Source of the DNA: Betaproteobacteria bacterium
GTDB taxonomy: Bacteria > Pseudomonadota > Gammaproteobacteria > Burkholderiales > Rhodocyclaceae
Direction: 5' to 3'
Assembly: GCA_012026675.1 (NCBI GenBank)
Contig: VEPA01000265.1
Location: forward strand, 1-37,055
Length of the DNA: 37,055 nt
Shown here one piece after another: positions 6,475 through 29,881 of the stretch (positions within the stretch are counted from its first letter, which is position 1; every line of letters begins with the position of its first letter). Under the pieces are notes generated by a model. That model had not been told where the DNA came from and made no database searches. It saw nothing but the letters and a program-made list of their open reading frames with translations. Both the position numbers and the translations under genes were made by a program.

Positions 6475-6515
6475 AGGACGGCTTGATCGAATGGATAACC
6501 TGTAAGGGAAACAGC

Positions 6516-6806
6516 ATGGCTAAGGCGTATTGGGTCAGCACCTATCGCTCGGTAAGCGATCCCGACAAACTTGCCGCCTACGCGACGCTTGCCGGGCCGG
6601 CCATCACTTCGGGCGGAGGGCGTTTTTTGGCGCGCGGCGAGCCGGCCAAGGTATACGAACAGGGTTTGCAGCAGCGTACCGTGCTGATCGAGTTCGATAG
6701 CGTCGAGCAGGCCATTGCCACCCATGACAGCCCGGGCTATCAGGCAGCGCTGGCGGCCCTGGGCGACGGTGCTGAAAGGGAAATCCGCATCATCGGGGGG
6801 ATTTGA
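6516..6806 (+). CDS. DUF1330 domain protein
   Basis: A 96-residue protein of the DUF1330 ferredoxin-like alpha/beta-barrel family: AYWVSTYRSVSDPDKLAAY at the start, a central RFLARGE strand, and VLIEFDSVEQAIATHDSPGYQAA, the hallmark of the family. No member of the family that I know has a firm biochemical role. The ATG at 6516 is preceded by AAGGGA; the frame runs 11 codons further upstream but without a better site. It is 41 bp after the symporter and before a strong hairpin, so it is probably the last gene of the tartrate operon. Confidence 0.8.
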   Translation: MAKAYWVSTYRSVSDPDKLAAYATLAGPAITSGGGRFLARGEPAKVYEQGLQQRTVLIEFDSVEQAIATHDSPGYQAALAALGDGAEREIRIIGGI

Positions 6807-6830
6807 GCATCTGCGCGCGATGGATTGCCG

Positions 6831-6868
6831 GATGTTGCGGACTTGAATTCCGCAACATCGGCCGGCTT
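6831..6868 (+). terminator. Hairpin at the end of the tartrate operon
   Basis: GATGTTGCGGA (6831-6841) pairs perfectly with TCCGCAACATC (6849-6859) around a seven-base loop, giving an 11-bp stem. GGCCGGC and then TTTT follow. It lies 24 bp after the DUF1330 stop. The stem is convincing; the T-run is short and set off by seven bases, so it may act as an imperfect intrinsic terminator or a 3'-end stabiliser. Confidence 0.6.
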
Positions 6869-6879
6869 TTCCCTGGTTC

Positions 6880-7824
6880 ATGATTACCTTTCTCGGCAAC
6901 CTCACCCTCGCCCTCCCGCTCTTTGCGCTTGTGTTCGTCGGATTTGCGCTCATGCGCTTCACCCGGCTGCCCAACGCGTGGTCGGAACGCTTGTCCTGGT
7001 TCGTGTTTTCAATCGCGCTTCCGGCGATGCTGTTCCGCCTGATGAGCAAATTTTCAAAATTGCCGCCCGGCGATCTGCGCTTGCTGCTGGCCTTTTTTGG
7101 CAGTTGCCTTGTCGTTTTCGCGATCGGGCGCATCATTGCATGGAAGGTTTTTGCAATGGACGGCGTCGAGCAATCCGTTTTTGCGCTTGGGGGCATTTTT
7201 TCAAACACCGTCATGCTCGGCCTGCCGCTGGCGACCCTGGTCCTGGGCGACGCCGCAACGCCTTCCGTCGCGCTGATCCTGGTCTTCAATGCGCTGATCC
7301 TGAGGACCCTCGTTACCGCATCCGTCGAATGGGCGAGGCACGGCAGCCTGTCCCTCCATGGTGGAGCCCGGACCCTGCTTGCGGTCTTGACCAATCCGAT
7401 CGTGGCCGCAATCGTTTCCGGCACCCTGTTCGGCTTTGTCGGCCTGGCCATTCCGGACTGGCTCGATGTCCCGCTATCGATCCTTGGACAACTTGCCGCT
7501 CCGCTGGCCTTGATCGCGCTTGGAATGGGACTGTCCATGTACGGCATCCGCGTCGGGCTGCATGTGAGCCTGGCGATTACAGCGATAAAAACACTCTTGC
7601 AGCCCCTGGTGGTATGGATGCTTGCCCGCTTCCTGGATTTGCCCGCCATGGAGACCCAGGTCGTCGTCTTGCTCGCGTCGATTGGAGTCGGCGCAAACGT
7701 CTACCTGATGTCGCGTCAGTTCAAGGTCCTCGAAGGGCCGGTGGCCGGCAGCCTGGTTCTATCGACCGCTTTCGCCGCCCTCACCACGCCGCTGATTCTG
7801 ACATTGACCCAGGCGGGCCCATGA
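6880..7824 (+). CDS. AEC (auxin efflux carrier) family transporter
   Basis: A 314-residue inner-membrane protein of about ten hydrophobic helices arranged as two five-helix halves, the AEC/PIN-like fold. Recognisable segments are the N-terminal helix FLGNLTLALPLFALVFVGF, GGIFSNTVMLGLPLATLVLG with the mid-membrane break, and ALIALGMGLSMYGI. Bacterial members transport malonate, malate or other small acids, often as permeases or exporters. Its position after the tartrate operon suggests an organic-acid substrate. It is separated from that operon by a hairpin, and no SD precedes the ATG at 6880, so it may be translated weakly. Confidence 0.82.
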   Translation: MITFLGNLTLALPLFALVFVGFALMRFTRLPNAWSERLSWFVFSIALPAMLFRLMSKFSKLPPGDLRLLLAFFGSCLVVFAIGRIIAWKVFAMDGVEQSVFALGGIFSNTVMLGLPLATLVLGDAATPSVALILVFNALILRTLVTASVEWARHGSLSLHGGARTLLAVLTNPIVAAIVSGTLFGFVGLAIPDWLDVPLSILGQLAAPLALIALGMGLSMYGIRVGLHVSLAITAIKTLLQPLVVWMLARFLDLPAMETQVVVLLASIGVGANVYLMSRQFKVLEGPVAGSLVLSTAFAALTTPLILTLTQAGP

Positions 7825-7885
7825 CATAAATATCTTTCCGTCGAATCGGGAAAAGGTGTTTGACTGCCAAAGCATGCCCCGGCCA

Positions 7886-7913
7886 TTGCGACGCCATGCC
7901 AAATGGGGATAAT
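7886..7913 (+). promoter_or_regulatory. Candidate sigma-70 promoter for pyruvate kinase
   Basis: TTGCGA (7886-7891) and GATAAT (7908-7913) are separated by 16 bp, and the -10 lies 32 bp before the pyruvate kinase ATG. Both boxes match consensus at four or five of six positions. Confidence 0.4.
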
Positions 7914-7945
7914 GGCCGCGTGATCGCCTCCTCACGGGAAAGGGC

Positions 7946-9400
7946 ATGGCCATGAACCTCGACGGAAAACGTGTTTCACTGCACTGGCGCCGCACCAAGA
8001 TCGTGGCTACGCTGGGTCCGGCCAGTTCCGATCCGGCCATGATCACCAGGCTGCTGCGGGCCGGGGTCGATGTGGTGCGCCTCAACATGTCCCACGGCAC
8101 ACATGAGGCCCACCGCGAGGTCTACGGCCATGTGCGTGCGGCGGCGAAGAAGCTTGGCCGGCATGTCGCGATCTTCGCCGACCTGTGCGGACCCAAGATT
8201 CGCTGCGGCAAATTTCCGGACGGGCCGCTGAAGCTCACTCCCGGCGACGAGGTGATGATCGATCCGCGCGTGGACAATGGCGGGCCGGGGCTGATCGCGT
8301 CCCAGTACCGGGCCATCGCGCGCGACGTCAAGCCCGGCCACCGCATCCTGCTCGACGACGGCAACCTGGAGCTGCAGGCGCTGGCCATCGAGGGCGACCG
8401 CGTACGCTGCAAGGTGGTCTTCGGCGGCCTGCTCAAGGACCACAAGGGCATCAACCTGCCGGACTCGAAGGTCTCCGCGTCTTCGCTGCCGCCGAAGGAC
8501 GTCGCCGATGCGAAGTTCGCCATCGATCTTGGCGTCGATTACCTGGCGTTGTCTTTCGTGCGCACCGCCAAAGACGTCGCCGGCCTGCGTCGCCTGATCG
8601 CGCGTGCCGGGGCCGCGACGCCGATCATCGCCAAGATCGAGACGCCGGAAGCCATGGAAAACATCGAAGCCATCGTCGAGGCCTCGGACGCCATCATGGT
8701 GGCGCGCGGCGACCTCGGCATCGAAATGCCGGCGGAGCAGGTGCCGCTGATCCAGCGCGAACTGATCAATCTGGCGCGGCGGCGCAACAGGGCGGTGATC
8801 GTGGCCACGCAGATGCTGGAATCGATGATCGACCATTCGCGGCCGACGCGGGCGGAAGTGGGCGACGTCGCCAACGCGGCATTGACCGGTGCCGACGCGG
8901 TGATGCTGTCGGCCGAAACGGCGAGCGGCAAGTTTCCGATACGCGCGGTCGAGATGATGGACCGGGTCCTGCGCGAGGCAGAGGGCTACCAGTGGCGGCA
9001 GGGCAGTTTTTCAGCCGCGGCCGAGCCGGGTGAAGCCGGCATGAGCCTGCGCGATGGCGTCGCCAGTGCCGCCGCCGCGTTGGCGCACGACCTCAAGCTG
9101 CAGGGCATCATCATCCCGACCTTGAGCGGCACGACGGCAAGGGTGATTTCCTCCTATCGCCCGACGGCGCCGCTGGTGGCGGTGTCCACCGATCCGGCGG
9201 TGTGCCGCCGTCTGTCGCTGAACTGGGGCATCGTGCCGATGACGGCAACGCAGTCGGAGTACGGCAACTGGGAACAACTCTGCCATCGGGTGGCCCGCAG
9301 CTGCCAGCTGACCCGTACCGGTCACAATGTGCTGCTGGTCTCGGGATTCAGCGACGATGCGGCGCGAAACTCGCCGATGCTGAAGGTTCTGCGCGTCTGA
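7946..9400 (+). CDS. pyk: Pyruvate kinase
   Basis: A 484-residue pyruvate kinase, the glycolytic enzyme making ATP and pyruvate from phosphoenolpyruvate and ADP. In order: RRTKIVATLGPASSD (start of the barrel), VVRLNMSHG, ADLCGPKIRCG, KDHKGINLP, IIAKIETPEAMENI (catalytic lysine), VARGDLGIEMP (Mg2+ and substrate loop) and VATQMLESMI, then the C-terminal allosteric domain from about residue 370. Length is typical. GGGAAAGGG lies just before the ATG at 7946, with a second possible ATG two codons on. It is a single-gene unit after the organic-acid transporter. A 66-bp decayed copy of codons 61-82 occurs at the left end of the window. Confidence 0.95.
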   Translation: MAMNLDGKRVSLHWRRTKIVATLGPASSDPAMITRLLRAGVDVVRLNMSHGTHEAHREVYGHVRAAAKKLGRHVAIFADLCGPKIRCGKFPDGPLKLTPGDEVMIDPRVDNGGPGLIASQYRAIARDVKPGHRILLDDGNLELQALAIEGDRVRCKVVFGGLLKDHKGINLPDSKVSASSLPPKDVADAKFAIDLGVDYLALSFVRTAKDVAGLRRLIARAGAATPIIAKIETPEAMENIEAIVEASDAIMVARGDLGIEMPAEQVPLIQRELINLARRRNRAVIVATQMLESMIDHSRPTRAEVGDVANAALTGADAVMLSAETASGKFPIRAVEMMDRVLREAEGYQWRQGSFSAAAEPGEAGMSLRDGVASAAAALAHDLKLQGIIIPTLSGTTARVISSYRPTAPLVAVSTDPAVCRRLSLNWGIVPMTATQSEYGNWEQLCHRVARSCQLTRTGHNVLLVSGFSDDAARNSPMLKVLRV

Positions 9401-9443
9401 GGCATCCGTCCCTGGCCGGCGGCGGCAGTGCTTTAGATTTCAA

Positions 9444-9472
9444 TTGACAAGCCATAAGTGATACACTATACT
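9444..9472 (+). promoter_or_regulatory. paa operon sigma-70 promoter
   Basis: TTGACA (9444-9449) is a perfect -35 and TATACT (9467-9472) a five-of-six -10, with the ideal 17-bp spacer. It is the best promoter in the window. It ends about 110 bp before the paaA start, leaving a leader of roughly 100 nt. Confidence 0.75.
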
Positions 9473-9499
9473 TTTTTTAAAGTACAAGAAATGTATCAC
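9458..9499. promoter_or_regulatory. paa operator: 42-bp inverted repeat over the promoter
   Basis: GTGATACA (9458-9465) and TGTATCAC (9492-9499) are perfect 8-bp inverted arms. Nested between them is TACTTT (9469-9474) facing AAAGTA (9479-9484). The dyad covers the -10 and the expected transcription start, the place for a repressor that is released by phenylacetyl-CoA in known paa systems. No paaX- or paaR-like gene lies next to the operon, so the regulator is elsewhere or is one of the regulators in this window; that is open. Confidence 0.65.
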
Positions 9500-9582
9500 G
9501 TTTGACGGGGTCTTCCCGGGCAGCCGGAAGACCAAAAACGGCAAACGACCCCGCAACGGCAGCAGAGAGAAGGAAGCAGACC

Positions 9583-10587
9583 ATGTATACCCAGGCCATG
9601 GACACCATGCGCGACGAAGGCGGCGACAAGCCTGCCTTGCGCACGGCCGAGGAAGCGCAACTGCAGCAGCGCTTCGACAATCGCATCGACGCCGGCGACT
9701 TCATCGAGGCCAAGGACTGGATGCCGGAGCACTACCGCAAGACCTTGTTGCGCCAGATCAGCCAGCATGCGCATTCCGAAATCGTCGGCATGCTGCCCGA
9801 GGGCAACTGGATCACCCGCGCGCCGACGCTCAAGCGCAAGAGCATCCTGCTGGCCAAGGTGCAGGATGAAGGCGGCCACGGCCTCTACCTTTATGCTGCG
9901 GCGGAGACCCTGGGCACCAGCCGCGACCAGATGCTCGACGCGCTGCACACGGGCAAGGCCAAGTACAGCTCGATCTTCAATTACCCGACACTGCCCTGGG
10001 CCGACGTCGGCGCCATCGGCTGGCTGGTCGACGGCGCGGCGATCATGAACCAGGTGCCGATCTGCCGCTGCTCGTTTGCGCCCTATGCGCGGGCCATGGT
10101 GCGCATCTGCCGCGAGGAAAGCTTCCATCAACGCCAGGGCTACGATGCGCTGATGGTGATGATGAAGCAGGGTACCGACGCGCAGCGGGCCATGGTGCAG
10201 GAAGCGGTGAACCGCTGGTGGTGGCCCTGCCTGATGATGTTTGGCCCGCCCGACGACCAGAGCCCGAATTCGGCGCAGGGCATGCGCTGGGGCATCAAGC
10301 GCGTCAGTAACGACACGCTGCGCCAGAAGTTCGTCGACGCCGCCGTGCAGCAGGCCGAGGTGCTGGGCGTCAGCTTCCCCGACCCCGACCTGCGCTGGAA
10401 CGAGGAAACCCAGCACTGGGACTACGGCGCCATCGACTGGTCGGAATTTTGGGCCGTGGTGGGCGGCGAGGGACCCTGCAACCGCGAGCGGCTTGCCGAC
10501 CGCGTCAAGGCCTGGGAAGACGGCGAATGGGTGCGCGAAGCGGCGCTGGCCCATGCGAGAAAGCTTGATATGAAGGAGGCAGCATGA
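9583..10587 (+). CDS. paaA: 1,2-phenylacetyl-CoA epoxidase, subunit PaaA
   Basis: A 334-residue catalytic subunit of the multicomponent phenylacetyl-CoA epoxidase, a bacterial di-iron monooxygenase that epoxidises the aromatic ring of phenylacetyl-CoA. The ferritin-like four-helix core is plain: [37 protein letters not shown] (carboxylate/histidine iron ligands), [15 protein letters not shown] (second ligand helix) and the [14 protein letters not shown] segment. Length is slightly above the E. coli protein. The ATG at 9583 follows GAAGGAAG; a longer frame beginning at 9502 overlaps the promoter dyad and is rejected. The stop overlaps paaB as ATGA. Confidence 0.95.
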
Positions 10588-10874
10588 CTACCAATACCGA
10601 ATGGCCGCTGTGGGAAGTCTTCGTCCGCACCAAGGCCGGACTCGACCACAAGCACTGCGGCAGCCTGCATGCCGCCGACTCCAAGATGGCGGTGCAGATG
10701 GCGCGCGACGTGTATACCCGGCGCCAGGAAGGCAGCAGCGTCTGGGTGGTGCGCTCCGACCAGATCGTCGCCAGCGATCCGGGCGACAAGGACATGTACT
10801 TCGATCCCGCCGAGGACAAGGTCTATCGCCATCCCACCTTCTACAAGCTGCCGGATTCGGTAGACCACATGTAA
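10584..10874 (+). CDS. paaB: 1,2-phenylacetyl-CoA epoxidase, subunit PaaB
   Basis: A 96-residue PaaB, the small structural subunit of the epoxidase. [45 protein letters not shown] and VWVVRSDQI are family hallmarks, and length matches the family. It starts within the paaA stop (ATGA) after AAGGAGG. The role is structural and bridging in the known PaaABCE complex. Confidence 0.95.
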
Positions 10875-13782: not shown

Positions 13783-15495
13783 TCAATGGGGCAGCTTGGC
13801 GTAGGCGGCGAGCAGGGCCTGGTGCAGATTGCAGCCCTTGAGTCCGAGACCCGGCGCCTCGATGCCGAAGCAGCGTTCTTCCTGGCGCAGCATGGCTTCC
13901 GCGCTCGCCAGCGTTGAACTGCCGTAGAGATGCTCCAGCGCCTGGCGATGCCCGTCGGCACCGCCGAGTTCGAGCAGGGTTTCGATGCAGCGATAGACCA
14001 GGCGTCGCGCCGGGTTTATCTGCTCGAAGTGGCGCAGCCATTCACAGCCTTCGCGAATCGCCTCTTCGTCGCCGCAGGCCAGCGCCAGCAGGGTTTTCAG
14101 TTCACCGACGCGCAGGTCGGCCCAGAATGAATCCGCTTCGGCGGCGAGGCCGATCAGGGGCGTGATCGGCCTTTGGTCGGGCAGGTCGAGTTCATTGAGG
14201 GTGTCGAGAAGGTCGCCGCATTCGTCCTCGTCCAGTTCCGGCAGGTGCAGGATGGCCTCGCGGATCGCGTTGCCGACGCTGTTGTTCTCCCATTCCAGTT
14301 CGTCCAGCGGGTAGATCTCCGACATGCCCGGCACCAGAATGCGACATGCATAGACGCCGAGGTGCGTGAAGTCGGCTACATAAACGTCGTGGCCGCAACG
14401 GTGGATGCGCTCGATCAGCCAGTGATAGTCCTCGGACGTGGTGTTGCTGAAATTCCAGTCGACAAATTCGTAATCCGGCGTGTCGCCGAGAAAGTTCCAG
14501 CTGATGATGCCGCTGGAATCGACGAAGTGGATCTCGATGTTGGGCGCGGCGGCGATTTCGTCGAGATCGAAGCCGGGCGGCGGAAAACCGGCCAGCGCAT
14601 CGAGGCCGCGTCCCTGCAGCAGTTCGGTCAGCGCGCGCTCCAGCGCGATCTCGAAGCGCGGGTGGGCGCCGAAGCTGGAGAAGCAACCCTGGTCCTCGGG
14701 ATGCAGCATGGTGACGTTCATCACCGGGTACTCGCCGCAAAGCGAGGCATCCTTGACCAGGATGCCAAAGCCCGCCTCGCGCAGGCCGCGGATGCCCGCC
14801 GCGATGCGCGGATAGCGGGCGATAACCTGCTCCGGCACATCGGGCAGGCAGAGGCCTTCACTGATGATGCGGAACTTGATGTGGCGCTCGAGGATTTCCG
14901 ACAGGGCCTGGCTGCGCGCCTCCATCTCGGTGTTGCCGGCCGACATGCCGTTGCTGACATAGAGGTTGCCGATCAGGTTGACCGGGAACCAGACGCTGGC
15001 GCCGTCGCGCTGCCGCACATAGGGAAGGGCGCAGATGCCGCGTTCGCTGTCGCCGGAATTCAGGTCAATCAGCGTGTTGGCGTCGATGCTGTCGTCGGGG
15101 TCGTAAAGCTTGCGCAATTCGGGCGTCAGCAACTGCTCCGGCCACTCGCCGTTGGCGCCCGGCTGAAACCACTGTTCGCGCGGGTAGTGGGCAAAGTCGC
15201 GGCGGGCGAACTGGTCGCCCAGGTAGTAATGCGTCCAGAAGTAATTGCAGGACAGGCGCTCGAAGAATTCGCCGAGTGCGCTGGCCAGTGCGGCCAGCCG
15301 CGAACCGCCCTTGCCGTTGGTGAATAGCAGCGGGCAGTCGCGGTCGCGAACATGCACCGACCAGACGCCATCCACCGGATTCAGCCAGGAGCGTTCCTCG
15401 ACGTGGAAGCCGAGCTTGTCGAGCTTGCCCTGCATCGAGGCGATCGAGGATTCGAGCGATGCGTCCTTGCCGGGGATGAAGCTTTCTGTCTGCAT
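13783..15495 (-). CDS. ycaO: YcaO: ribosomal protein S12 methylthiotransferase accessory factor
   Basis: A 570-residue YcaO, matching E. coli YcaO from end to end. The ATP-binding YcaO domain covers most of it: FTNGKGGSRLAALASALGEFFERLS, GNLYVSNGMSAGNTEMEA, ALSEILERHIKFRII and GAHPRFEIALERALTELLQGRG, with SSGIISW and GVYACRILVPGMSEIYP further on; a C-terminal tetratricopeptide-like tail follows. E. coli YcaO assists RimO in beta-methylthiolation of ribosomal protein S12; other YcaO proteins cyclodehydrate peptides with ATP. I start it at 15495 (MQTESFIPG), where GAGGG lies upstream, rather than at 15573, which adds 26 residues absent from the family. No rimO or precursor-peptide gene is nearby. 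Confidence 0.92.
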   Translation of the reverse strand: MQTESFIPGKDASLESSIASMQGKLDKLGFHVEERSWLNPVDGVWSVHVRDRDCPLLFTNGKGGSRLAALASALGEFFERLSCNYFWTHYYLGDQFARRDFAHYPREQWFQPGANGEWPEQLLTPELRKLYDPDDSIDANTLIDLNSGDSERGICALPYVRQRDGASVWFPVNLIGNLYVSNGMSAGNTEMEARSQALSEILERHIKFRIISEGLCLPDVPEQVIARYPRIAAGIRGLREAGFGILVKDASLCGEYPVMNVTMLHPEDQGCFSSFGAHPRFEIALERALTELLQGRGLDALAGFPPPGFDLDEIAAAPNIEIHFVDSSGIISWNFLGDTPDYEFVDWNFSNTTSEDYHWLIERIHRCGHDVYVADFTHLGVYACRILVPGMSEIYPLDELEWENNSVGNAIREAILHLPELDEDECGDLLDTLNELDLPDQRPITPLIGLAAEADSFWADLRVGELKTLLALACGDEEAIREGCEWLRHFEQINPARRLVYRCIETLLELGGADGHRQALEHLYGSSTLASAEAMLRQEERCFGIEAPGLGLKGCNLHQALLAAYAKLPH

Positions 15496-15626
15496 GTGAA
15501 GGTCCCTCTGGATTGTACGAATGGGGGAATGCAAGACAGCGGACTGTGCTGCACGGCGCAAGGCGCGCAGCATAGCGAGGCGGCGGCCGGCTGTCCATCG
15601 CGGAATGCCGGGCGACGTCGGCGAGA

Positions 15627-16496
15627 CTATTCGGCCTTCGACAACTCGGTGAAATCGTGTATCAGGTCATCGAGCTTTTGCCGGGCATGGTCGCGCTGCG
15701 CCGCCGTCATCATGGCGTGGATGGCCACGGCGAGTTCCGCCGAGGCGCGGCGCAGGGCCAGCGCCCGTGCCAGCCGCGCCGGATCGGTGGGCAGATCGAA
15801 GCGGGCCGCGTAGTCGCGCAGCAGCGCGATGATGCGTTCGCGCGGCGGGCGTTCGCGTTGCACCTGGCGCATCAGTTCCAGCAGTTCGCGCTGGCGGCGC
15901 AGCCTTTCCTCGTACCAGAACTGGTGGCCCGGATCCTGGGCTTCGACCATGCGCCGCAAGGCGCTTTCCTGCTCGTTGCTGAAGCTGCCGAACCAATATT
16001 CGGCGCGTTCCAGCAGACGCTTGTAGCGCGCCTTGTGCTGCGCAGCCTCGCCCTCCGCGAGGCGCATTTCCTTGACGAGATCGGCATTCTTCTCGGCGAA
16101 GCGCGCGGCCATGCGGTCGATCTGGGCAGGTGTCAGGGTGGCCACGAGATCGGCGACATCCGGTGTGGCCTGCTCGGCGACTACCCGCACGCGGCGGATC
16201 AGGTCATCGCCGAGCCTCAGCGCATCGCTTGCCGCTGGCTCGCCGGCAACAAAAGCCTTGCCTTGCTGCAGCAGGGCAACATAGTCAGGCAATTGGGTCT
16301 TGCGGTGCCAGGCAAACAAACGGGCCAGACGCTCGCGGCTCAGCGCATCCTGCTCCGGCGACAGATCGAGGTACTGGTCGATCCACCAGCGCGCAAGGCT
16401 GTCCGCATTGCCATAGCCGAGGCGCACGGCGCTGCAGCCCTGCAGGATCAGGCCGACGATGAGGGCCAGGATCAGGTGGCGGACGAAACGGTGCAT
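15627..16496 (-). CDS. DUF6279 family lipoprotein
   Basis: A 289-residue predicted lipoprotein. The start MHRFVRHLILALIVGLIL runs into the lipobox LQGC with Cys21 as the lipidated residue. The mature part is almost entirely helical and charged, with the family's opening RLGYGNADSLARWWIDQYLDL and LARLFAWHRKTQLPDYV, and ends in a basic coiled-coil-like stretch. The family is common in beta- and gammaproteobacteria and has no established function. I use the ATG at 16496 because it gives a normal lipoprotein signal; an ATG 20 codons earlier would place charged and proline-rich residues before it. It is 131 bp upstream of ycaO on the same strand and divergent from the WD40-caspase gene. Confidence 0.8.
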   Translation of the reverse strand: MHRFVRHLILALIVGLILQGCSAVRLGYGNADSLARWWIDQYLDLSPEQDALSRERLARLFAWHRKTQLPDYVALLQQGKAFVAGEPAASDALRLGDDLIRRVRVVAEQATPDVADLVATLTPAQIDRMAARFAEKNADLVKEMRLAEGEAAQHKARYKRLLERAEYWFGSFSNEQESALRRMVEAQDPGHQFWYEERLRRQRELLELMRQVQRERPPRERIIALLRDYAARFDLPTDPARLARALALRRASAELAVAIHAMMTAAQRDHARQKLDDLIHDFTELSKAE

Positions 16497-16958
16497 GAAA
16501 GGCGGGGTGCGAAGAGGAGGGACTGGAGTATCCACGGGCATCGTGGCGGCAGTCAATCTCCTACTGCCGGAATGGCGGAGGCGGCGCCGTCAGAAAAGGC
16601 GCCGGGACGTGCTTTTTGTCGAACGACAGTGCGGTGCCCGAAGGCGACTGATGCCATTGACAAGTCTGAAGCCAGCTCTCTCACGACATTGCCGCCCTTG
16701 GCAATCAACATTGCTTTGCAGGTACCTCATGCAGCCATCGGAATACATTCAAATCCCATTCGTGCCTTTGTGGCAACTTCGACCCGTCACAAAATTGGGA
16801 CAATCAATTCCGACACGTCGGATGATCAAATTATCCGTTTTGTCCATATGGGATTAGTGGCGCAGAATTATCCTGTATCGGTGTTTATGAATAAGTATTG
16901 CTCTTGGTTCGAAGTGTTGCGTATTCACGGAGAGAGGCAAAGAGTAAGGGAGCATTCA
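16497..16958. other. Relatively AT-rich divergent intergenic region
   Basis: A 462-bp gap between the divergent lipoprotein and WD40-caspase genes. I see no convincing gene; the frame on the plus strand is an upstream extension with no signal or family. Base composition drops clearly from about 16640 on. It contains a hairpin (CGGCGCC 16582-16588 facing GGCGCCG 16598-16604), a TTTGTG/CACAAA dyad (16767-16772 and 16788-16793) and AATTG/CAATT (16793-16797 and 16805-16809). A weak promoter pair is TTGTCC (16840-16845) with CAGAAT (16863-16868). Regulation of the caspase gene presumably sits here. Confidence 0.45.
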
Positions 16959-19900
16959 ATGACCCGCATGTCGCTGATGATACTCACCAAACTGACGTGC
17001 TTGTGTCTCGGCGTGCTGCTGGTCGTGCCCACCATGGCATTGGCAGCAGAAGGAGGCGCGGCGGGCAATCCGCCCCCTGCTGCCACACAGCCGAACCTCA
17101 TTCTCCAACTCGGACACCTTGAAGAGATCAATGGCATGCCTGCCCTCAGCCCTGACGGCAAGCTTGCCGCCACGATGGACAAAGGCCACACCGTCATCGT
17201 CTGGGATGTCAGCACCGGCCGGCAATTGCGGCGACTGATCCCAAATGAAGAACGGGAAGTGTCCTGGAGCAAGGAGAAAGAGAAAGGCTCGACCACTTCA
17301 TTTTTTCCCGTCCAGCTTGCCTTCAGTCCGGATGGAACGATCCTGGCCGCCCCGGCAGAGCAGGGCGTGACCTTGTGGCGTGTGCAGGATGGCCGCATCC
17401 TGCAGGATATCAAACTGAGCAAAGATTTTATGGTCGGTGAAACACGGGCCTTGACATTCAGCCCCGACGGCAAGCGGCTGGCAGTTTCCAAGACTTCGTA
17501 CAACGGTATCGCGGTTCTGGAGGTCGCCACCGGGCGGGTGATATACGAGCCGGGCTCGCGTTCCTCAAACGTTTTTTATACCTTCGATGTGATGGTGTGG
17601 AGCCCGGATGGGCGCTTCATCTTCGCCACACACAATTTCGACTGCCCGCCGGAATTGGCAAAGAACGTGGATGGCTGGCCTGTCCGAACCTGCGTAATAA
17701 ATGTCTTGGATGCTTCGACTGGGAAGAAAATCCAGGCGATTGAAGGCGATGGCAGCAACAACCAGCATTTCGCCCTAAGTCCGGACGGCAAGCTGCTCGC
17801 GGTATATCAGGCGTCCCTCCGGGCTTACGATAGCCTCGATGAAGCGCAGAAAAGGGCGCTCGGTTCGAACCCGAATCTCTTCAAGGACATTGCTCTTGGC
17901 CCCGATGGCAAGCCTGTTTCTGGGCCACGTGGCAATATTTCATTTGTCAGAGAAATACGAATTGCCTTGTATGAGGCCGGCAGCTGGCGCCAATTGGCAA
18001 CTTTCCCGTCAGGGTTTGGAGGGCGATTCACTAAACCTTCCATCCTCGCCTTCAATTTCCCTACCCCCCTCGCCTTCAGTCCGGACGGCAGATGGCTCGC
18101 GGCGGGCGGGGAGACGCTGAAATTCTGGAACATCCAGAACACTGCGCTGCCTGCCCAGGAACTGGCTCTACCATTTCCAACGAACAGCTATGCCTGGCTG
18201 CCTGACGGCCAGAGCGTCCTCGTCTTCGGCAGGAGTGGCATACCGCAAATCCTTTCTCTCGCGCCCTCAAGCAATTTGGCAAATTGGGAAAGCATTTCGC
18301 CACTTAGGTACTCAGGCGCTGGAGATTCAGTCGCCATCGATCAGGACGGCCTGCGACTGGCTGTTTCTTCCGGGTTGATTGGTAATAAGGGGCTTATCGA
18401 CATCTGGGACATCAAAGCCGGAGTTCGTTCCCGCCGGCTCGAATCCGCTGGAATTGGAGGTATCGTGCGTTTTAGTCCCGACGGGACGTGGCTGGCCCAT
18501 CGGAGGGATGGTATAGAGGTGTGGAACACGCAGACTGCCAGTCGAGTAGTGCATATCCCTAATTGGGGTTTCGCTAATTTCGAACTAACAGCGGATGGAC
18601 GGCTACTTGCGAACACAGGTAATGCCATCCAACTCTACGACATCCCATCGGGCAATAAGATTGCTGAATATCCTGGTACGAAATCAGGGGAGAAACCTCC
18701 AAGTTTCCCCCGGTATGCTGTGAGCCCGGATGGCCGATGGATTGCTGCTTACCAGCGGGGGGAGAAAGGGATCTGGAATGACTTCTTGCGCATCTGGAAC
18801 ACGCAATCAGGACAAGAGGTAGCCTCGTTTCAGGTTCATGGTGGAACCAATTTGCTGCAATTCATTAACAACAGACAGTTGGTTTACTTAGGAGGTGACA
18901 AACCTCTGGACGTAATACGGCAACCGTTATGGGTGTGGAACGTCGAGCGCGGCAAGAATGACAGTCCCGTGGGAGAGTTGCCGCATACGGTAATCTGGAA
19001 TGTATCTTCGCTTGTCGGCACCCGTCTGGCTCTTTGTTGCTCAACCCAGACCGGCGAGATGTCAGGACTCTCCAAAATATTCGACTTCAAGACCGGCCAG
19101 CAGTGGCCCTTGCGCGATTCGCGTTTTGTCGGCGGCTACTTGGCTAGCATGGCCTTGTTCCCCGCCGGGCGGTTCATCGCCCTCGCGGGTACGGACGGAA
19201 CCGTCCGCGTCCTGACGCAGGACAAGGGGGAACTGGTGATCACGCTCTTGGCCATGCCGGGAACCGACGACTGGCTGGCCTTCACTCCCGAGGGCTTGTT
19301 CGACGGCACCCCCGGTGGGTGGGATGCCCTGCTGTGGCGCTTCTCCGACGAACTGTACGATGTTGCCCCGGCCGAGGCCTTCTTCAACGAGTTCTACCGT
19401 CCCGGTCTGCTGGCCGACATGATGGCCGGGGGACGGCCAAGCGCCCCCAGAAGCCTGGCCTCGGTCGACCGGCGCCAGCCCAGGGTGAGCCTGTCGGTGG
19501 CGGGTGGCAGCGAGCGTCAGGCAAAGGTCAGGATAGATGTCCAGGAGGCTCCGCCAGGGGGTGGTCGTGCCGGGGGCAGCGGCGTCCGGGATGTGCGGCT
19601 GTTCCGCAACGGTTCATTGGTCAAGCTCTGGAAAGGGGAAGTGAACGGCGGCAAGGGCGTCCTTGAGGCGACTGTGCCCATCGTGACCGGCGAGAACCGC
19701 TTTACCGCCTACGCCTTCAACCGCGACAACATCAAGAGCGGCGACGCGCGGGCCAGCGTCACCGGCGCGGACAGTCTCAAGCGCCCGGCCACGGCCTGGG
19801 TACTTGCCTTCGGCATCAACCGCTACGCCAACCCCGCCTTCAACTTGGGCTTCTCCGTGGCCGACGCTCAGGCCTTCACCGAACGCATCAAGCTTGACCA

Positions 19901-20723
19901 GACCACCCTCGGGCGTTACCAGCAGATCAAGCTTTTCACGCTCAAGGACAACGAGGCCACCAAGACGAACCTGCTCACTGCGCTCAAGCGGCTGGCCGGC
20001 AGCGAGCGAGGTCCCTTGCCCAAAGGGCTGCCCAAGGAATTGGCCGAACTGTCTCCCGCCCAGCCGGAAGATGCCGTTTTCATCTTCTTCGCCGGCCACG
20101 GCATGGCCAACGGGCCTCGCTTCTACCTCGTGCCGCACGACCTGGGCTACCAGGGCAAGATGGAGCAAATGGACGCCAAGGCCATGGCCACCATCTTCCA
20201 GCATGCCGTTTCCGACCTCGAACTGGAAGCCGCTCTCGAAACCCTCGATGCCGAACGGCTGGTCTTGACCATCGACGCGTGCAATTCGGGGCAGGCGCTG
20301 GAGGCCGAGGAGAAGCGGCGCGGGCCGATGAATTCGAAAGGACTGGCGCAACTCGCCTACGAGAAAGGCATGTACGTCATCACCGCCGCGCAAAGCCACC
20401 AGGCGGCGCTGGAGTTCGACCAGCTCGGTCATGGACTCCTGACCTACGCGCTCGTGATGGAAGGACTGGGCAAGGGTGAAGCCGACCGCCAGCCCAAGGA
20501 TGGCCGTATCGACGTGCGGGAGTGGCTGGACTACGCATCCGGCCGGGTGCCGCAGTTGCAACTGGCGGCGATGCAGGATCTGGAGAAACGCGGACGCAAG
20601 GTGGCAGTGGTGCGTGGCGAGGAAACCGAGGTCGATGTCCTCAAGCGCTCCCTCCAGCAGCCCCGGGTCTTCTATCGCCGGGAAACTGAACGCACGCCGT
20701 TTGTCGTTGGCACGGGAAAGTAG
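16959..20723 (+). CDS. Exported WD40-repeat beta-propeller caspase (peptidase C14) protein
   Basis: A 1254-residue fusion. Residues 1-30 are a Sec signal peptide ending at ALAA. From about 62 to 770 come some 13-14 WD40-like blades, each with a SPDG(K/R) turn and a WD/WN strand (enough for two propellers). Then comes a WLAFTPEGLFDGT module (from Trp772), an Ig-like beta domain (about 846-940) and a caspase fold (about 945-1235). The catalytic dyad is intact: His1047 in FFAGHG and Cys1108 in DACNSG. Prokaryotic caspases of this build are predicted cysteine proteases, often with repeat sensors. Here the signal peptide puts the whole protein in the periplasm or outside. The ATG at 16959 follows TAAGGGAG; the same frame extends back to 15657 without start signals and antisense to other genes. 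It appears monocistronic, and base composition differs from its neighbours. Substrate and trigger are unknown. Confidence 0.88.
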   Translation: MTRMSLMILTKLTCLCLGVLLVVPTMALAAEGGAAGNPPPAATQPNLILQLGHLEEINGMPALSPDGKLAATMDKGHTVIVWDVSTGRQLRRLIPNEEREVSWSKEKEKGSTTSFFPVQLAFSPDGTILAAPAEQGVTLWRVQDGRILQDIKLSKDFMVGETRALTFSPDGKRLAVSKTSYNGIAVLEVATGRVIYEPGSRSSNVFYTFDVMVWSPDGRFIFATHNFDCPPELAKNVDGWPVRTCVINVLDASTGKKIQAIEGDGSNNQHFALSPDGKLLAVYQASLRAYDSLDEAQKRALGSNPNLFKDIALGPDGKPVSGPRGNISFVREIRIALYEAGSWRQLATFPSGFGGRFTKPSILAFNFPTPLAFSPDGRWLAAGGETLKFWNIQNTALPAQELALPFPTNSYAWLPDGQSVLVFGRSGIPQILSLAPSSNLANWESISPLRYSGAGDSVAIDQDGLRLAVSSGLIGNKGLIDIWDIKAGVRSRRLESAGIGGIVRFSPDGTWLAHRRDGIEVWNTQTASRVVHIPNWGFANFELTADGRLLANTGNAIQLYDIPSGNKIAEYPGTKSGEKPPSFPRYAVSPDGRWIAAYQRGEKGIWNDFLRIWNTQSGQEVASFQVHGGTNLLQFINNRQLVYLGGDKPLDVIRQPLWVWNVERGKNDSPVGELPHTVIWNVSSLVGTRLALCCSTQTGEMSGLSKIFDFKTGQQWPLRDSRFVGGYLASMALFPAGRFIALAGTDGTVRVLTQDKGELVITLLAMPGTDDWLAFTPEGLFDGTPGGWDALLWRFSDELYDVAPAEAFFNEFYRPGLLADMMAGGRPSAPRSLASVDRRQPRVSLSVAGGSERQAKVRIDVQEAPPGGGRAGGSGVRDVRLFRNGSLVKLWKGEVNGGKGVLEATVPIVTGENRFTAYAFNRDNIKSGDARASVTGADSLKRPATAWVLAFGINRYANPAFNLGFSVADAQAFTERIKLDQTTLGRYQQIKLFTLKDNEATKTNLLTALKRLAGSERGPLPKGLPKELAELSPAQPEDAVFIFFAGHGMANGPRFYLVPHDLGYQGKMEQMDAKAMATIFQHAVSDLELEAALETLDAERLVLTIDACNSGQALEAEEKRRGPMNSKGLAQLAYEKGMYVITAAQSHQAALEFDQLGHGLLTYALVMEGLGKGEADRQPKDGRIDVREWLDYASGRVPQLQLAAMQDLEKRGRKVAVVRGEETEVDVLKRSLQQPRVFYRRETERTPFVVGTGK

Positions 20724-20892
20724 TGCGACATTTTTCCGGTGGGAAGAATTCAATTAAACCGCGAGTTCAAATTCGAAGTACAACTTTGATCAACGGGTTG
20801 GCTTTTGACGAAATCAGAGACCGTGCAGGTGTCGAGCAGATACTTCATGCCAGCGGATCTGCCGCCGGCGGCTTGAGGCGGTTTGTACGAAG

Positions 20893-20929
20893 GAGGTGCG
20901 CCTTGGAAGGCGTAGCCAAGTCGCACCTC
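20893..20929. repeat. Long imperfect hairpin downstream of the caspase gene
   Basis: GAGGTGCG (20893-20900) pairs with CGCACCTC (20922-20929). After one mismatch, CTTGG (20902-20906) pairs with CCAAG (20916-20920) around a nine-base loop, giving 13 base pairs in all. It lies 170 bp after the caspase stop and 70 bp beyond the IclR stop. There is no U-run on either strand, so it is not a classic terminator. The rest of the 275-bp gap (20724-20998) holds no recognisable gene. Confidence 0.5.
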
Positions 20930-20956
20930 ATCTTCCGCATCGTCCCCAATAAAGGC

Positions 20957-20973
20957 GAAAGTCGGCGCTGGCG
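20957..20973 (-). repeat. Dispersed 17-bp repeat, copy 2
   Basis: Exact copy of GAAAGTCGGCGCTGGCG, here 25 nt beyond the stop codon of the minus-strand IclR gene. The flank (ATACGCTGC) keeps part of the ACG tail seen in the other copies. Confidence 0.7.
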
Positions 20974-20998
20974 ATACGCTGCAGAAAGCTCGCGGGGA

Positions 20999-21802
20999 CT
21001 ACGCCGCTCCGCGCCAGCCCCTCCGGCGCGAGATGTCGAGCGCGGCGGCGCGAATTGCTTTCGGGATCGGGCCGTTCCAGTTCGATGGCATGAGACCGGC
21101 AGGTCCGAGGCCGGTGATGGCCAGGGCCATCTTGCCGTCGTGATCGAAGACCGGCGCCGAGAATGCGTTGATGCCGGGAATCACCGATCCCACCGCGCGC
21201 GACATGCCGTGTTGCCGGGCTTCGGTCGTCAGCGCGTCGAGTTGCGCGCGCGTAACCGCTCCGCGTGGGTCGTCGCCGCGCGCGTCGATCAGGAGTTCTT
21301 CGTCGACCCGGCGCTGCAGCAGGGGTGAATCGAAAAAGGCGACGAAGCACAAGCCGATCGCGGAGTGCAGCAAGGGCATGACCGCGCCCGTGCGCAGATT
21401 GACCGTGACCGGGCGCCGCGACTCGACCCAGCGCACGATGGTGGGGCCCATGTTGCCCCATACCGCCAGGGCCACGGTTTCCCCAATTTCCTCGGCGAGT
21501 GCATCGAGGACCGGGGTTGCCACGCGCACCGCGTCGAGCCGGGCGAGGCTGGCCAGGCCGAGGTCGAGGGCAAAATGGCCGAGATCGTAGCGGCCCGAGA
21601 GGCCGTCCTGCGTGACCAGTCCGGTACGGATGAAACTGACCAGGTAGCGGTGGGCCTTCGCGGCCGGCATGCCGGCTGCCTTGGCCAGATCGCGCAGCAT
21701 CATTGGCGCGCCGTGATCGGCCAGGACCCGCAGCAGGGGTATGCCAACCTCGATGGACTGTATGCCCTGACGGCTGTCTTCGTCTTTTTCTTCGGCTAAC
21801 AT
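20999..21802 (-). CDS. IclR family transcriptional regulator
   Basis: A 267-residue IclR-type regulator. The N-terminal winged helix is IQSIEVGIPLLRVLADHGAP through MLRDLAKAAGMPAAKAHRYLVSF; the effector-binding GAF-like domain follows from about residue 85, with the usual GPTIVRWVESRRPV, MPLLHSAIGLCFVAF and AVGSVIPGINAFSAPVFD. IclR proteins bind small acids or aromatics and often control catabolic operons. It is divergent from the exonuclease gene across 68 bp, but an exonuclease is an unlikely target, so its regulon is probably elsewhere. A perfect TATAAT on its strand ends about 10 bp before the ATG, implying a very short leader if it is used. Confidence 0.9.
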   Translation of the reverse strand: MLAEEKDEDSRQGIQSIEVGIPLLRVLADHGAPMMLRDLAKAAGMPAAKAHRYLVSFIRTGLVTQDGLSGRYDLGHFALDLGLASLARLDAVRVATPVLDALAEEIGETVALAVWGNMGPTIVRWVESRRPVTVNLRTGAVMPLLHSAIGLCFVAFFDSPLLQRRVDEELLIDARGDDPRGAVTRAQLDALTTEARQHGMSRAVGSVIPGINAFSAPVFDHDGKMALAITGLGPAGLMPSNWNGPIPKAIRAAALDISRRRGWRGAA

Positions 21803-21833
21803 GGTGACGGATTATAGAATTGCCGTGCGACAC

Positions 21834-21845
21834 GCGCCGACTTTC
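21834..21845 (+). repeat. Partial match to the dispersed repeat, opposite orientation
   Basis: GCGCCGACTTTC is a 12-base match to the reverse complement of the 17-bp repeat; the remaining bases (CAC instead of GCCA) differ. It lies 25 bp before the exonuclease start in a divergent gap, unlike the three full copies. It could be a degenerate copy or chance. Confidence 0.35.
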
Positions 21846-21870
21846 AAGTTTTCCCAACGGAACCCAGTCC

Positions 21871-22674
21871 ATGACCCCCGTTCTCGTCTTTGACATCGAG
21901 ACCATCCCTGACATCGCCGGCCTGCGCACGCTGCACGATCTGCCGGCGAGTTTGCCGGATGCCGAGGTCGCCGAGTTCGCCTTCCAGCGCCAGCGGGCGA
22001 AGAACGGCAGCGATTTTCTGCCGCTGCACCTGCAGCGGGTGGTGGTGATTTCCTGCGCGCTGCGCAGCCACGGGAACGATGGTGGCTTTCGCGTCTGGTC
22101 GCTGGCCGAGCCCAAGTCGGGCGAGGGCGAAATCATCCAGCGCTTCTTCGACGGCGTGGAGAAGTTCACGCCGCAGATCGTGTCCTGGAACGGCGGTGGC
22201 TTCGATCTGCCGGTGCTGCATTACCGCGGCCTGATCCACGGCGTCACCGCGCCGCGCTACTGGGACATGGGCGAGGGCGACTACCGCGACTCGAAGGACT
22301 TCAAGTGGAACAATTACATCAGCCGCTATCACTCGCGCCATCTCGACCTCATGGATCTGCTGGCGATGTACCAGCCGCGCGGCAGTGCGCCGCTCGACCA
22401 ACTGGCGCGCCTGATGGGGCTGCCCGGCAAGCTCGGCATGGACGGTTCGGCGGTCTGGGGCGCCTGGCAGGAGGGGCGCGCCGATGAAATACGCGACTAT
22501 TGCGAAACCGACGTGGTGAATACCTTTCTGGTCTTCCTGCGCTTCCAGATGATGCGCGGCTTGCTGACTGCCGCCGAACACGACGCCGAACTGGCTCTGG
22601 TGAAATCATCGCTGGCAGCCACCGGCCAACCGCACTGGAAGGAATTTCTTGCTGCCTGGGAGGGATCATGCTGA
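21871..22674 (+). CDS. DEDDy 3'-5' exonuclease, PolB-exonuclease-like
   Basis: A 267-residue stand-alone exonuclease related to the proofreading domain of family-B DNA polymerases. Exo I is VFDIET (Asp8, Glu10), Exo II is SWNGGGFDLPVL (Asp112) and Exo III is YCETDVVNT (Tyr210, Asp214), so the two-metal active site is complete and of the DEDDy type. Length matches the family of predicted PolB-like 3'-5' exonucleases found without a polymerase. The likely substrate is single-stranded DNA or RNA ends; the cellular role is unknown. The ATG at 21871 is used because the family starts right before the first motif; an upstream in-frame start at 21820 overlaps the IclR promoter. Its stop overlaps the next gene by seven bases. 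Confidence 0.87.
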   Translation: MTPVLVFDIETIPDIAGLRTLHDLPASLPDAEVAEFAFQRQRAKNGSDFLPLHLQRVVVISCALRSHGNDGGFRVWSLAEPKSGEGEIIQRFFDGVEKFTPQIVSWNGGGFDLPVLHYRGLIHGVTAPRYWDMGEGDYRDSKDFKWNNYISRYHSRHLDLMDLLAMYQPRGSAPLDQLARLMGLPGKLGMDGSAVWGAWQEGRADEIRDYCETDVVNTFLVFLRFQMMRGLLTAAEHDAELALVKSSLAATGQPHWKEFLAAWEGSC

Positions 22675-27669: not shown

Positions 27670-28866
27670 ATGAACAAACAACTGCAAGACGCCTACATCG
27701 TTGCCGCCACCCGCACCCCGATCGGCAAGGCACCGCGCGGCATGTTCCGCAACGTTCGCCCCGACGATTTGCTGGTGCGCGCGATCCAGTCCGCCATGAG
27801 CCAGGTGCCGGGCCTCGACCCGAAGCTGATCGAGGACGCCATCGTCGGCTGCTCCTTCCCCGAAGGTGAATCCGGCCTCAACATGGCCCGCAACGCCGTG
27901 TTGCTGGCGGGCCTGCCGAATACCGTGGGCGGCGTCACCGTGAACCGCTTCTGCGCATCGGGCATCACCGCGATCGCCATGGCCGCCGACCGCATCCGCG
28001 TCGGCCAGGCCGATGTCATGATCGCCGGCGGCGCCGAGTCGATGTCGATGGTACCGATGGGCGGTTTCCATCCCTCAATCAACATGGATGTGTTCAAGGA
28101 CGAGAATGTCGGCATGGCCTACGGCATGGGCCTCACCGCCGAGAAGGTGGCCAACCAGTGGAAGATCACGCGCGAGATGCAGGACCAGTTCGCGCTCGCG
28201 TCGCATCAGCGGGCCATCGCCGGCCAGCAGGCGGGCGAGTTTGACAACGAGACGACGCCGGGCGACATCGTCGATCGCGTGCCGAATCTAGCCACGGGCG
28301 AGGTCGAGCTGAAGAAGCGCACCGTCAATCGCGACGAAGGCGCGCGCGCCGACTCGACGCTGGCGGCGCTGGCCAAACTGAAGCCGGTGTTTGCCGCCAG
28401 GGGTTCGGTCACCGCCGGCAACAGTTCGCAGACTTCCGACGGCGCCGGTGCGCTGATCCTGGTCAGCGAGAAAATATTGAAGCAGTTCAACCTGACGCCG
28501 CTGGCGCGCTTCGTCTCCTTCGCGGTACGCGGCGTGCCGCCCGAGATCATGGGCATCGGTCCCAAGGAAGCGATCCCGGTCGCGTGCAAGGCCGCCGGCA
28601 TCACCCAGGACCAACTCGACTGGATCGAACTCAACGAAGCCTTCGCCGCGCAGGCATTGGCGGTCATCAATGACCTCGGCCTCGATCCGGCCAAGGTGAA
28701 TCCGCTGGGCGGCGCCATCGCGCTGGGGCATCCGCTTGGCGCCACCGGTGCGATCCGTGCCGCGACTACGGTGCATGCCCTGCGCCGGCGCAAGCTGAAG
28801 TACGGCATGGTGACCATGTGCGTCGGCACCGGCATGGGTGCGGCGGGGATTTTCGAGCGCATGTAG
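27670..28866 (+). CDS. Acetyl-CoA C-acyltransferase (3-ketoacyl-CoA thiolase)
   Basis: A 398-residue thiolase. The acyl-accepting Cys95 is in NRFCASGITAI, His354 in GGAIALGHPLGATGA and the second cysteine Cys384 in CVGTGMGAAG; NEAFAAQAL is also present. All catalytic residues are intact and length is typical. It cleaves 3-ketoacyl-CoA to acetyl-CoA and a shortened acyl-CoA, ending the cycle begun by the two preceding genes. An AAAGGAAA lies before the ATG, 30 bp after the upstream stop. The TAG stop overlaps the first base of a dispersed 17-bp repeat. FadA/FadI-type degradative use is inferred from the operon; biosynthetic acetoacetyl-CoA thiolases look similar. Confidence 0.92.
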   Translation: MNKQLQDAYIVAATRTPIGKAPRGMFRNVRPDDLLVRAIQSAMSQVPGLDPKLIEDAIVGCSFPEGESGLNMARNAVLLAGLPNTVGGVTVNRFCASGITAIAMAADRIRVGQADVMIAGGAESMSMVPMGGFHPSINMDVFKDENVGMAYGMGLTAEKVANQWKITREMQDQFALASHQRAIAGQQAGEFDNETTPGDIVDRVPNLATGEVELKKRTVNRDEGARADSTLAALAKLKPVFAARGSVTAGNSSQTSDGAGALILVSEKILKQFNLTPLARFVSFAVRGVPPEIMGIGPKEAIPVACKAAGITQDQLDWIELNEAFAAQALAVINDLGLDPAKVNPLGGAIALGHPLGATGAIRAATTVHALRRRKLKYGMVTMCVGTGMGAAGIFERM

Positions 28867-28882
28867 AAAGTCGGCGCTGGCG
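28866..28882 (-). repeat. Dispersed 17-bp repeat, copy 3
   Basis: Exact GAAAGTCGGCGCTGGCG, filling the 16-bp gap between the convergent thiolase and iminopeptidase stops. It begins on the last base of the thiolase stop and abuts the iminopeptidase stop. The tail TTACGGCGG runs into the iminopeptidase 3' end, so the repeat even supplies its stop codon. Confidence 0.7.
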
Positions 28883-29881
28883 TTACGGCGGCAAAAAACT
28901 GCTGCGAGCGGAAAATTCGGTGAGTCCTCGACGCATCGCGTCGACCATTGTCGGATTGAATGGATCGTGGCCGGCCCCGGCGACGATTCGGAGCACACTG
29001 TCAGGGCAGGCTCGATGCGCCTGGCGGGCACCCGCGGGAGGACAGACTGCATCGTGGAGGCCATGCAGGAACAGGACCGGTAGTCTGCCGAGTCTGGCGC
29101 AGGACGTCACTACTTCGTTGCGACCCAGCCAGCACGCATTGGCCAGGTAGTGGCGCTGGATGCGGTAGCGCCTGCAGAGCGCATGCAGGGCACCACCTTC
29201 CGGTGCCGCTTCGGCGGCAAGCCCGCCCAGTGCCCGTTCCCAGGCGAACCAGGCGCGCGCTGCGGCGCATTGTTGTGCGCTGTCGCCATGCCTGAAAATG
29301 CCTTTCAGGCTTGCCAGCAGCTTACCCGGTGTGGCGTCCGCCACGGCGGCGGACAGGTCCGCCCATGGCCGGGGATAAAAGGCCGCGGCACGATGAAAAA
29401 ACCAGTCGAGATCGTGCTCGCGGCAAAGGAACAGGGCGCGTAGCAGCAGGCCGGAAACGGCGGCGGGATGCCTTGCCGCATAGAGTACCGCTAGGGTCGC
29501 TCCCCATGAACCTCCAACCACCAGCCAGCGGCGAATCCCGAGATGCCCGCGCAATGCCTCTGCATCAGCCAGCAGGTCTTGCGTACGGTTATGCGCCAGT
29601 TCGCCGGCGGGCTCGCTGAGGCCGCAACCGCGCTGGTCGACCTGGATGATGCGGTAAACGGCTGGGTCAAAAAAGCATGCCTGCTTTGGCGAGCTGCCCG
29701 ATCCGGGACCGCCGTGAAATACTACCGCAGCGATTCCGGCCGGATTACCGCGTTGGGTGTAGGCGATGCGATGTCCGCCCGACACGGGCAGCCACCCGCT
29801 GTCGAAAACGGCTGGAGGCGCCAATTGATCGTCGGGCTGCGGCGACGGGATGGGTTGTTGGATCAATGTGGGTAACAGCAA
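28883..29881 (-). CDS. pip: Proline iminopeptidase (alpha/beta hydrolase, family S33)
   Basis: A 332-residue alpha/beta-hydrolase. HGGPG (56-60) forms the oxyanion hole, DQRGCGLSEP is the family signature, Ser125 in VGGSWGATLA is the nucleophile, Asp277 in HGLHDAVCPP and His305 in GAGHDPF complete the triad. It removes N-terminal proline from peptides in the cytoplasm. The best available start is TTG at 29881; there is no ATG in frame near the N-terminus and no clear SD, so the true start may lie a little downstream (another TTG about 20 codons on). It is a single gene convergent with the beta-oxidation operon and divergent from pqqA. Confidence 0.87.
   Translation of the reverse strand: MLLPTLIQQPIPSPQPDDQLAPPAVFDSGWLPVSGGHRIAYTQRGNPAGIAAVVFHGGPGSGSSPKQACFFDPAVYRIIQVDQRGCGLSEPAGELAHNRTQDLLADAEALRGHLGIRRWLVVGGSWGATLAVLYAARHPAAVSGLLLRALFLCREHDLDWFFHRAAAFYPRPWADLSAAVADATPGKLLASLKGIFRHGDSAQQCAAARAWFAWERALGGLAAEAAPEGGALHALCRRYRIQRHYLANACWLGRNEVVTSCARLGRLPVLFLHGLHDAVCPPAGARQAHRACPDSVLRIVAGAGHDPFNPTMVDAMRRGLTEFSARSSFLPP

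Follow-up and report, generated by a model that had tools for sequence, protein, structure and literature searches.

The DNA analyzed here, referred to as the window, is a stretch of 37,055 nucleotides from a Betaproteobacteria bacterium of the family Rhodocyclaceae (assembly GCA_012026675.1, contig VEPA01000265.1, positions 1 to 37,055 of the forward strand). The gene of interest lies on the plus strand in a frame that is open from position 16959 to a stop at 20723 and encodes a protein of 1254 amino acids (aa), here called the window protein; all coordinates are positions in the whole window (Table 1). Judged from sequence comparison and structure models, the assignment of a predicted signal peptide, a double propeller, a TPEG module, an immunoglobulin (Ig)-like sandwich and a C14 caspase domain to this one protein holds. 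Lys/Arg, a hydrophobic core and an ALA site for cleavage are present in residues 1-30, which passed a home-made signal-peptide rule.

Table 1. Features of the caspase gene and its surroundings, with positions in the window.
Feature	Position	Strand	Basis
Exported WD40-Ig-caspase, 1254 aa (predicted)	16959..20723	+	Open reading frame; Pfam C14, 29.2 bits; structure models
Shine-Dalgarno-like AAGGGAG, 6 bases before the ATG at 16959	16946..16952	+	Sequence
Sec-type signal peptide, residues 1-30, likely cut at ALA/A	16959..17048	+	Sequence; home-made rule; conserved in relatives
About 14 WD40-like blades, modelled as propellers, residues 46-765	17094..19253	+	Pfam WD40/PD40; solved WD40 proteins; model; Foldseek; count by eye
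TPEG-like module, residues 766-830	19254..19448	+	Conserved in alignments; model
Ig-like beta-sandwich, residues 842-936	19482..19766	+	Model; Foldseek to SoxYZ and fibronectin type III-like modules
C14 caspase domain, residues 940-1245	19776..20693	+	Pfam; metacaspase-4 profile match, E 9.6e-8; model
Asp969, candidate S1-pocket acid	19863..19865	+	Kept in 54/54 rows; role inferred
Catalytic His1047	20097..20099	+	AGHG context; kept in 54/54 rows, window included
Asp1106, candidate S1-pocket acid	20274..20276	+	Kept in 54/54 rows; role inferred
Catalytic Cys1108	20280..20282	+	DACNSG context; kept in 53/54 rows, window included
K1119-R1120-R1121, candidate self-cleavage site in the loop after Cys1108	20313..20321	+	R1120 conservation; low model confidence; role inferred
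Caspase-bearing segment that has no counterpart in relatives	16508..21008		DNA similarity to relative loci
DUF6279 lipoprotein, genus core gene; flank, not partner	15627..16556	-	Pfam; 16/18 other same-genus genomes
IclR-type regulator; flank	20999..21802	-	Pfam; synteny in 6/13 relative loci

The domain assignments were based on profile searches and on two AlphaFold2 models. The window protein exceeded the gathering cut-off of Pfam PF00656 (Peptidase C14) of 21.4 bits, although a first genome-wide scan with this family listed five other places and not the window gene, and no NACHT or other ATPase family was matched in the protein in the Pfam scan. The best stretches of Pfam WD40/PD40-type families lay in residues 55-644 and alignments to solved WD40 proteins within residues 51-765. 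The model of residues 45-1244, computed from an alignment of 51 rows, had a mean predicted local distance difference test score (pLDDT) of 79.1 and a predicted template modelling (TM) score of 0.83, with 114 of 1200 residues below a pLDDT of 50. The Foldseek matches listed for this model were WD40 proteins, including 1nr0, which has two seven-bladed propellers (E 2.3e-20, TM score by target 0.60). Thus, the propellers of the preliminary description, which had been made by eye from the DNA, were reproduced, while its count of about 14 blades remains an estimate and the exact number unproven because residues 395-454 were badly modelled (block mean pLDDT 24-46). The second model, of residues 711-1254 from an alignment of 54 rows, had a mean pLDDT of 89.1 and a predicted TM score of 0.88; the TPEG module, the Ig-like sandwich and the caspase domain named in the same description were all well modelled.

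In this C-terminal model the caspase domain consists of alternating strands and helices, with His1047 closing the third main strand and Cys1108 directly following the fourth. The predicted strand order around both residues is that of caspases and did not contradict the earlier description, for which a fold without apposition of the two would have been a refutation; their apposition is suggested by this order rather than by a measured distance. A caspase-only profile, which superseded an earlier profile that included the last blade and listed WD40 chains, matched plant metacaspase-4 (PDB 6w8s) with an E value of 9.6e-8 in an alignment that spans both His and Cys. This was the best match to a solved structure, other metacaspases being matched more weakly, and it covers the p20-like part only, plant metacaspase-4 having no propeller. 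Two results weigh against the caspase assignment. The best 50 Foldseek matches to the C-terminal model comprised deacetylases, glycoside hydrolases, beta-sandwich proteins, propellers and others but no caspase, and the NCBIfam model of EACC1-associated caspases (caspase_w_EACC1, NF047832) was matched weakly over the caspase core, with 44.2 bits against a cut-off of 140. Since no caspase was among these best 50 matches, the assignment rests on profiles, motifs and strand order.

Conservation of the catalytic residues was evident from an alignment of 54 rows picked from fetched loci, the window included, of which 43 were from the Acidobacteriota side and 11 of proteobacterial type. The His-Cys dyad, described from the start as intact, lies in GHG and D-x-C-x-S contexts, as expected of Peptidase C14, and was complete in every row but one. 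The exception, L130 (6270-9587, plus strand), is a family member with a natural Cys-to-Pro change that retains much of the motif region, i.e., a natural pseudo-caspase. Asp969 and Asp1106 resemble known S1 acids and, by analogy with metacaspases, would together form an acidic S1 pocket. A preference for Arg/Lys is attributed to non-caspase members of C14 in PMC5756287, and a like specificity may hold for the window protease. The basic loop that follows Cys1108 is a candidate for self-cleavage and no more. R1120 was kept in 41 of the 43 Acidobacteriota-side rows and pLDDT values fell below 50 at residues 1117-1120 or 1117-1121, depending on the model, but the KRR sequence was not conserved on the proteobacterial side, where F, K and P occupied the three places in 11, 10 and 10 of the 11 rows, respectively.

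Relatives of the window protein were collected by a scan of contigs with two peptide patterns, which found 124, of which the best 80 were kept. Export was examined with two home-made rules, and the control open reading frames (ORFs) were mechanically picked rather than verified genes. By the first rule, a signal peptide was noted in 68 of 72 full-length relatives as opposed to 108 of 246 other ORFs that were 400 aa or longer, and in three of the four relatives missed a hydrophobic stretch was visible by eye. By the second, stricter rule, 72 of the 80 family ORFs with a length of 900 aa or more had a signal peptide, compared with 114 of 332 other ORFs that were 250 aa or longer and none of 8 kinases. 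The mean cysteine content of the family was 0.28%, compared with 1.11% in controls without a signal peptide, and three wider relatives (L050, L051 and L052) appeared by eye to have a lipobox-like N-terminus in place of the signal peptide. Against this stand the high backgrounds of both rules, the cysteine content of the mature window protein (0.41%), which is above the family mean, and that of the controls, of which the median was 0.75% and 43 of 332 were at or below 0.28%. The same observations bear on the alternative of a mis-called start, by which the product would be a cytoplasmic, ordinary intracellular WD40 caspase. The frequency with which the second rule fires in other ORFs speaks for this alternative, whereas retention of the signal peptide in relatives from several phyla, the low cysteine content of the family, the Shine-Dalgarno-like site directly before the ATG and the lipobox-like N-termini speak against it, and we regard it as very improbable. 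Loss of the signal peptide among homologues, which would have spoken against the export originally proposed, was thus not the pattern found, and export as a family trait is supported by these comparisons.

The suggestion that export or an intact dyad sets the window protein apart was not supported. Export is the rule in the family, and the same genome encodes four further proteins that match C14 and, by eye, start with a signal peptide; two of these carry WD40 repeats, and in a fifth protein the start position is ambiguous. The window gene is therefore not alone in differing from cytoplasmic caspases in this way. As for the dyad, 84% of prokaryotic (bacterial) metacaspases had an intact one according to a 2012 survey (PMC3501461). 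In one relative (L098, ORF 5856-10631, plus strand) the caspase is followed by a tail of more than 300 aa that ends in F and has no Pfam match; the tail may represent a fused outer-membrane barrel, as would be in keeping with export.

The nearest relatives were from Acidobacteriota (mostly Blastocatellia, Pyrinomonadaceae) and one Aminicenantes bin, with 50-57% identity over the C-terminal half. Identities of weaker relatives on the Acidobacteriota side ranged down to 42%, and those of proteobacterial relatives were 32-35%. Matches at 1e-20 were found in 8 of 349 genomes of the host's order, the host itself included, the others being 30-36% identical, and the best-scoring other match in the host's family (150 genomes) was 37% identical. 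A quick tree of 79 rows contained a branch with a Shimodaira-Hasegawa-like approximate likelihood ratio test (SH-aLRT) value of 100 that separated an Acidobacteriota side (59 rows), to which the window sequence belonged, from the remaining rows, among them one Acidobacteriota row and one Aminicenantes row. The copy in the host species is an orphan, and its source is probably an Acidobacteriota-like lineage. Weighing against this placement, an approximately unbiased test left it undecided whether the window sequence lies inside or beside the Acidobacteriota clade (p 0.75), and constrained trees scored better than the free quick search; the two tree-topology tests share one split and count as one. 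Among plasmid records, 172 had a match, all below 60% identity, the best place being 26.6% identical (Rhizobium leguminosarum).

In the comparison with relatives, the segment that carries the gene had no counterpart. DNA similarity to relative loci stopped at 16445-16507 and restarted at 21009 or later, a dispersed 22-bp motif excepted. No orthologue of the caspase was found in 30 other same-genus genomes, six of which had weaker matches at 1e-5 (best 31% identical), and at 1e-10 the caspase was not found in any of 13 fetched relative stretches. Both the IclR and the DUF6279 genes were present in six of these 13, separated by a gap of about 1.4-3.5 kb with other ORFs. Horizontal acquisition of the caspase gene is the simplest reading and a likely one, because no orthologue was found in the 30 genomes and the two flanking genes are retained in six relatives that lack the caspase; the arrival of the gene in the species looks recent. 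The site between IclR and DUF6279 seems variable, since in L070 and L072 the gap holds other small ORFs, some of them Fic-like by eye. The GC content of the caspase gene was 59.7% and that of its third codon positions (GC3) 0.709, compared with 63.7-67.4% and 0.80-0.82 for the YcaO, DUF6279, IclR and PolB-exo2 genes. Points against acquisition are that other ORFs of the window also have a GC content of about 59-61%, three of them with GC3 of about 0.71, and that many of the same-genus genomes are incomplete (completeness 70-100%). No repeats of at least 12 bases were found within either end of the segment, only 8-base matches between its two ends, and no Rfam family reached the gathering score in 15000-22000.

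The divergent lipoprotein (DUF6279), initially put forward as the only evident partner of the caspase, was rejected in that role because it is a core gene of the genus (present in 16 of 18 other same-genus genomes) whereas the caspase orthologue was found in none of 30. The dispersed motif, of about 25 bp (GAAAGTCGGCGCTGGCGAtACGGCG), was noted in the window at 278-299, 20957-20978 and 28866-28887. Its first 22 bases had 122 copies in the genome at up to 2 mismatches, 61 on each strand, while the reversed control had none; no strong conservation extended beyond the motif in 20 copies examined, and it occurs in relatives too.

Neighbours of the relatives were surveyed in 80 loci with up to 8 kb per side, many cut by contig ends. 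Proteins of 244-361 aa, several with signal-peptide-like starts by eye, formed a cluster in 11 loci; of two members scanned, one was a DUF4384 protein (30.2 bits, cut-off 27) and one had no match. A Ser/Thr kinase cluster, of which the scanned member also bears DUF4384, was present in 8 loci, as was a second-caspase cluster (scanned member C14, 64.6 bits), in the latter case seven times on the proteobacterial side. Single loci contained CHASE2, CHAT or a sub-threshold sigma-70 region 4. Loci L125 and L133 each hold several family members, and L125 also has a kinase carrying a cyclase domain. In the window, the nine further ORFs that were compared with Pfam and NCBIfam were YcaO, DUF6279, IclR, PolB-exo2, a fatty-acid oxidation enzyme or without match, and none was of the kinase, DUF4384, second-caspase, CHASE2 or CHAT type by Pfam. 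Elsewhere in the host genome (86% complete) no DUF4384 was found, and three CHAT matches above cut-off were all on other contigs.

Taken with the evidence for export, these results lead us to favour, as a fairly probable reading, an envelope-located protease of metacaspase type that is specific for Arg/Lys and controlled by its propellers. Export and catalytic competence are supported by comparison among relatives; for regulation, specificity, signal, activation and substrate we infer the following scheme. A clan CD cysteine protease of metacaspase/orthocaspase type would be sent by its Sec signal peptide to the periplasm or cell surface, where the two modelled propellers would provide a large binding platform coupled to the caspase via the TPEG module and the Ig-like sandwich. 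Once the propellers bind a ligand or partner, the caspase would be set free or aligned, a step that may include self-cleavage in the basic loop following Cys1108. The enzyme would then cleave proteins of the envelope or outside the cell, after Arg/Lys. Among some relatives the same protein lies in signalling-like neighbourhoods, together with a Ser/Thr kinase and a DUF4384-type protein or with a second caspase, and in single loci with CHASE2 or CHAT. Weighing against this scheme, in which control by the propellers is a supposition, most of the 80 loci lacked any one neighbour cluster, though many contigs were cut.

Export and a conserved dyad would also be accounted for by a nutritional or processing protease, i.e., a secreted scavenger or maturation enzyme with the propellers as a substrate-docking platform and no switch. 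Secreted clan CD peptidases such as clostripain and gingipain are established. Signalling is favoured instead by the genes for kinases, DUF4384, CHASE2 and second caspases found beside some of the relatives, although the window copy has no such neighbour, and we consider this alternative unlikely. A third reading is that of an envelope death or defence effector, in which a surface signal would activate the protease to destroy envelope proteins of the cell itself or of its neighbours, as a device for suicide, kin discrimination or anti-phage defence. Consistent with it are the accessory nature of the gene and the variable content of its site among relatives, a weak PADLOC match of the caspase alone (E 2.4e-8) and the surface or fratricidal roles suggested for extracellular caspase homologues in the 2012 survey by Asplund-Samuelsson (PMC3501461). 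On the other side, the Pfam scan of nine further ORFs, a subset of those in the window, recognised neither a gasdermin nor a toxin or immunity gene, and no match at 1e-5 was found in 50,697 phage records. By eye the blades look diverged rather than freshly amplified, and the presence of four family members each in some acidobacterial bins (MAG52, palsa_120) fits regulation equally well. This reading, too, is judged improbable.

Proteins of this general kind were noted before. In the 2012 survey (PMC3501461), WD40 repeats were present in 10.9% (73) of 671 prokaryotic metacaspases, and an N-terminal helix in exported or single-transmembrane members was read as a possible signal peptide, with an extracellular site suggested; the kind to which the window protein belongs, i.e., WD40-bearing and possibly exported, is therefore already known. 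No family with its architecture or neighbours is described in the passages of the survey considered here. Like the bacterial WD40 caspase homologues (orthocaspases or prokaryotic metacaspases), the window protein combines C14 and a His-Cys dyad with WD40 repeats, but in it the caspase forms the C-terminal part and is preceded by the signal peptide, the two propellers and the Ig-like domain, with no NACHT or other ATPase match. MaOC1 of Microcystis (PMC7935541) is an active prokaryotic caspase homologue shown to cleave an antitoxin; its likely target stretch contains basic residues, and neither export nor a propeller is mentioned in the abstract. Among the matches listed in a literature search, no title dealt with exported bacterial caspases of this architecture, and in the literature searched there is little on an exported family that has two propellers and these neighbours.

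Bacterial caspases are mostly discussed as intracellular effectors of stress or phage responses. If the favoured reading of a propeller-controlled envelope protease is true, an exported family in which the dyad and very large extracytoplasmic sensors are conserved would place caspase-type proteolysis in the envelope as well, in proteins the size of receptors, and the neighbour genes of the relatives would offer concrete candidates for partners. More tentatively, and as a possibility that we hold rather doubtful, a wide family of envelope caspases in Acidobacteriota and Proteobacteria, each with a double-propeller receptor, may take part in signalling together with kinases, with exported proteins of DUF4384 type or with another exported caspase. 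Such modules would amount to an extracytoplasmic proteolytic signalling route that runs parallel to intracellular caspase systems and spreads between phyla.

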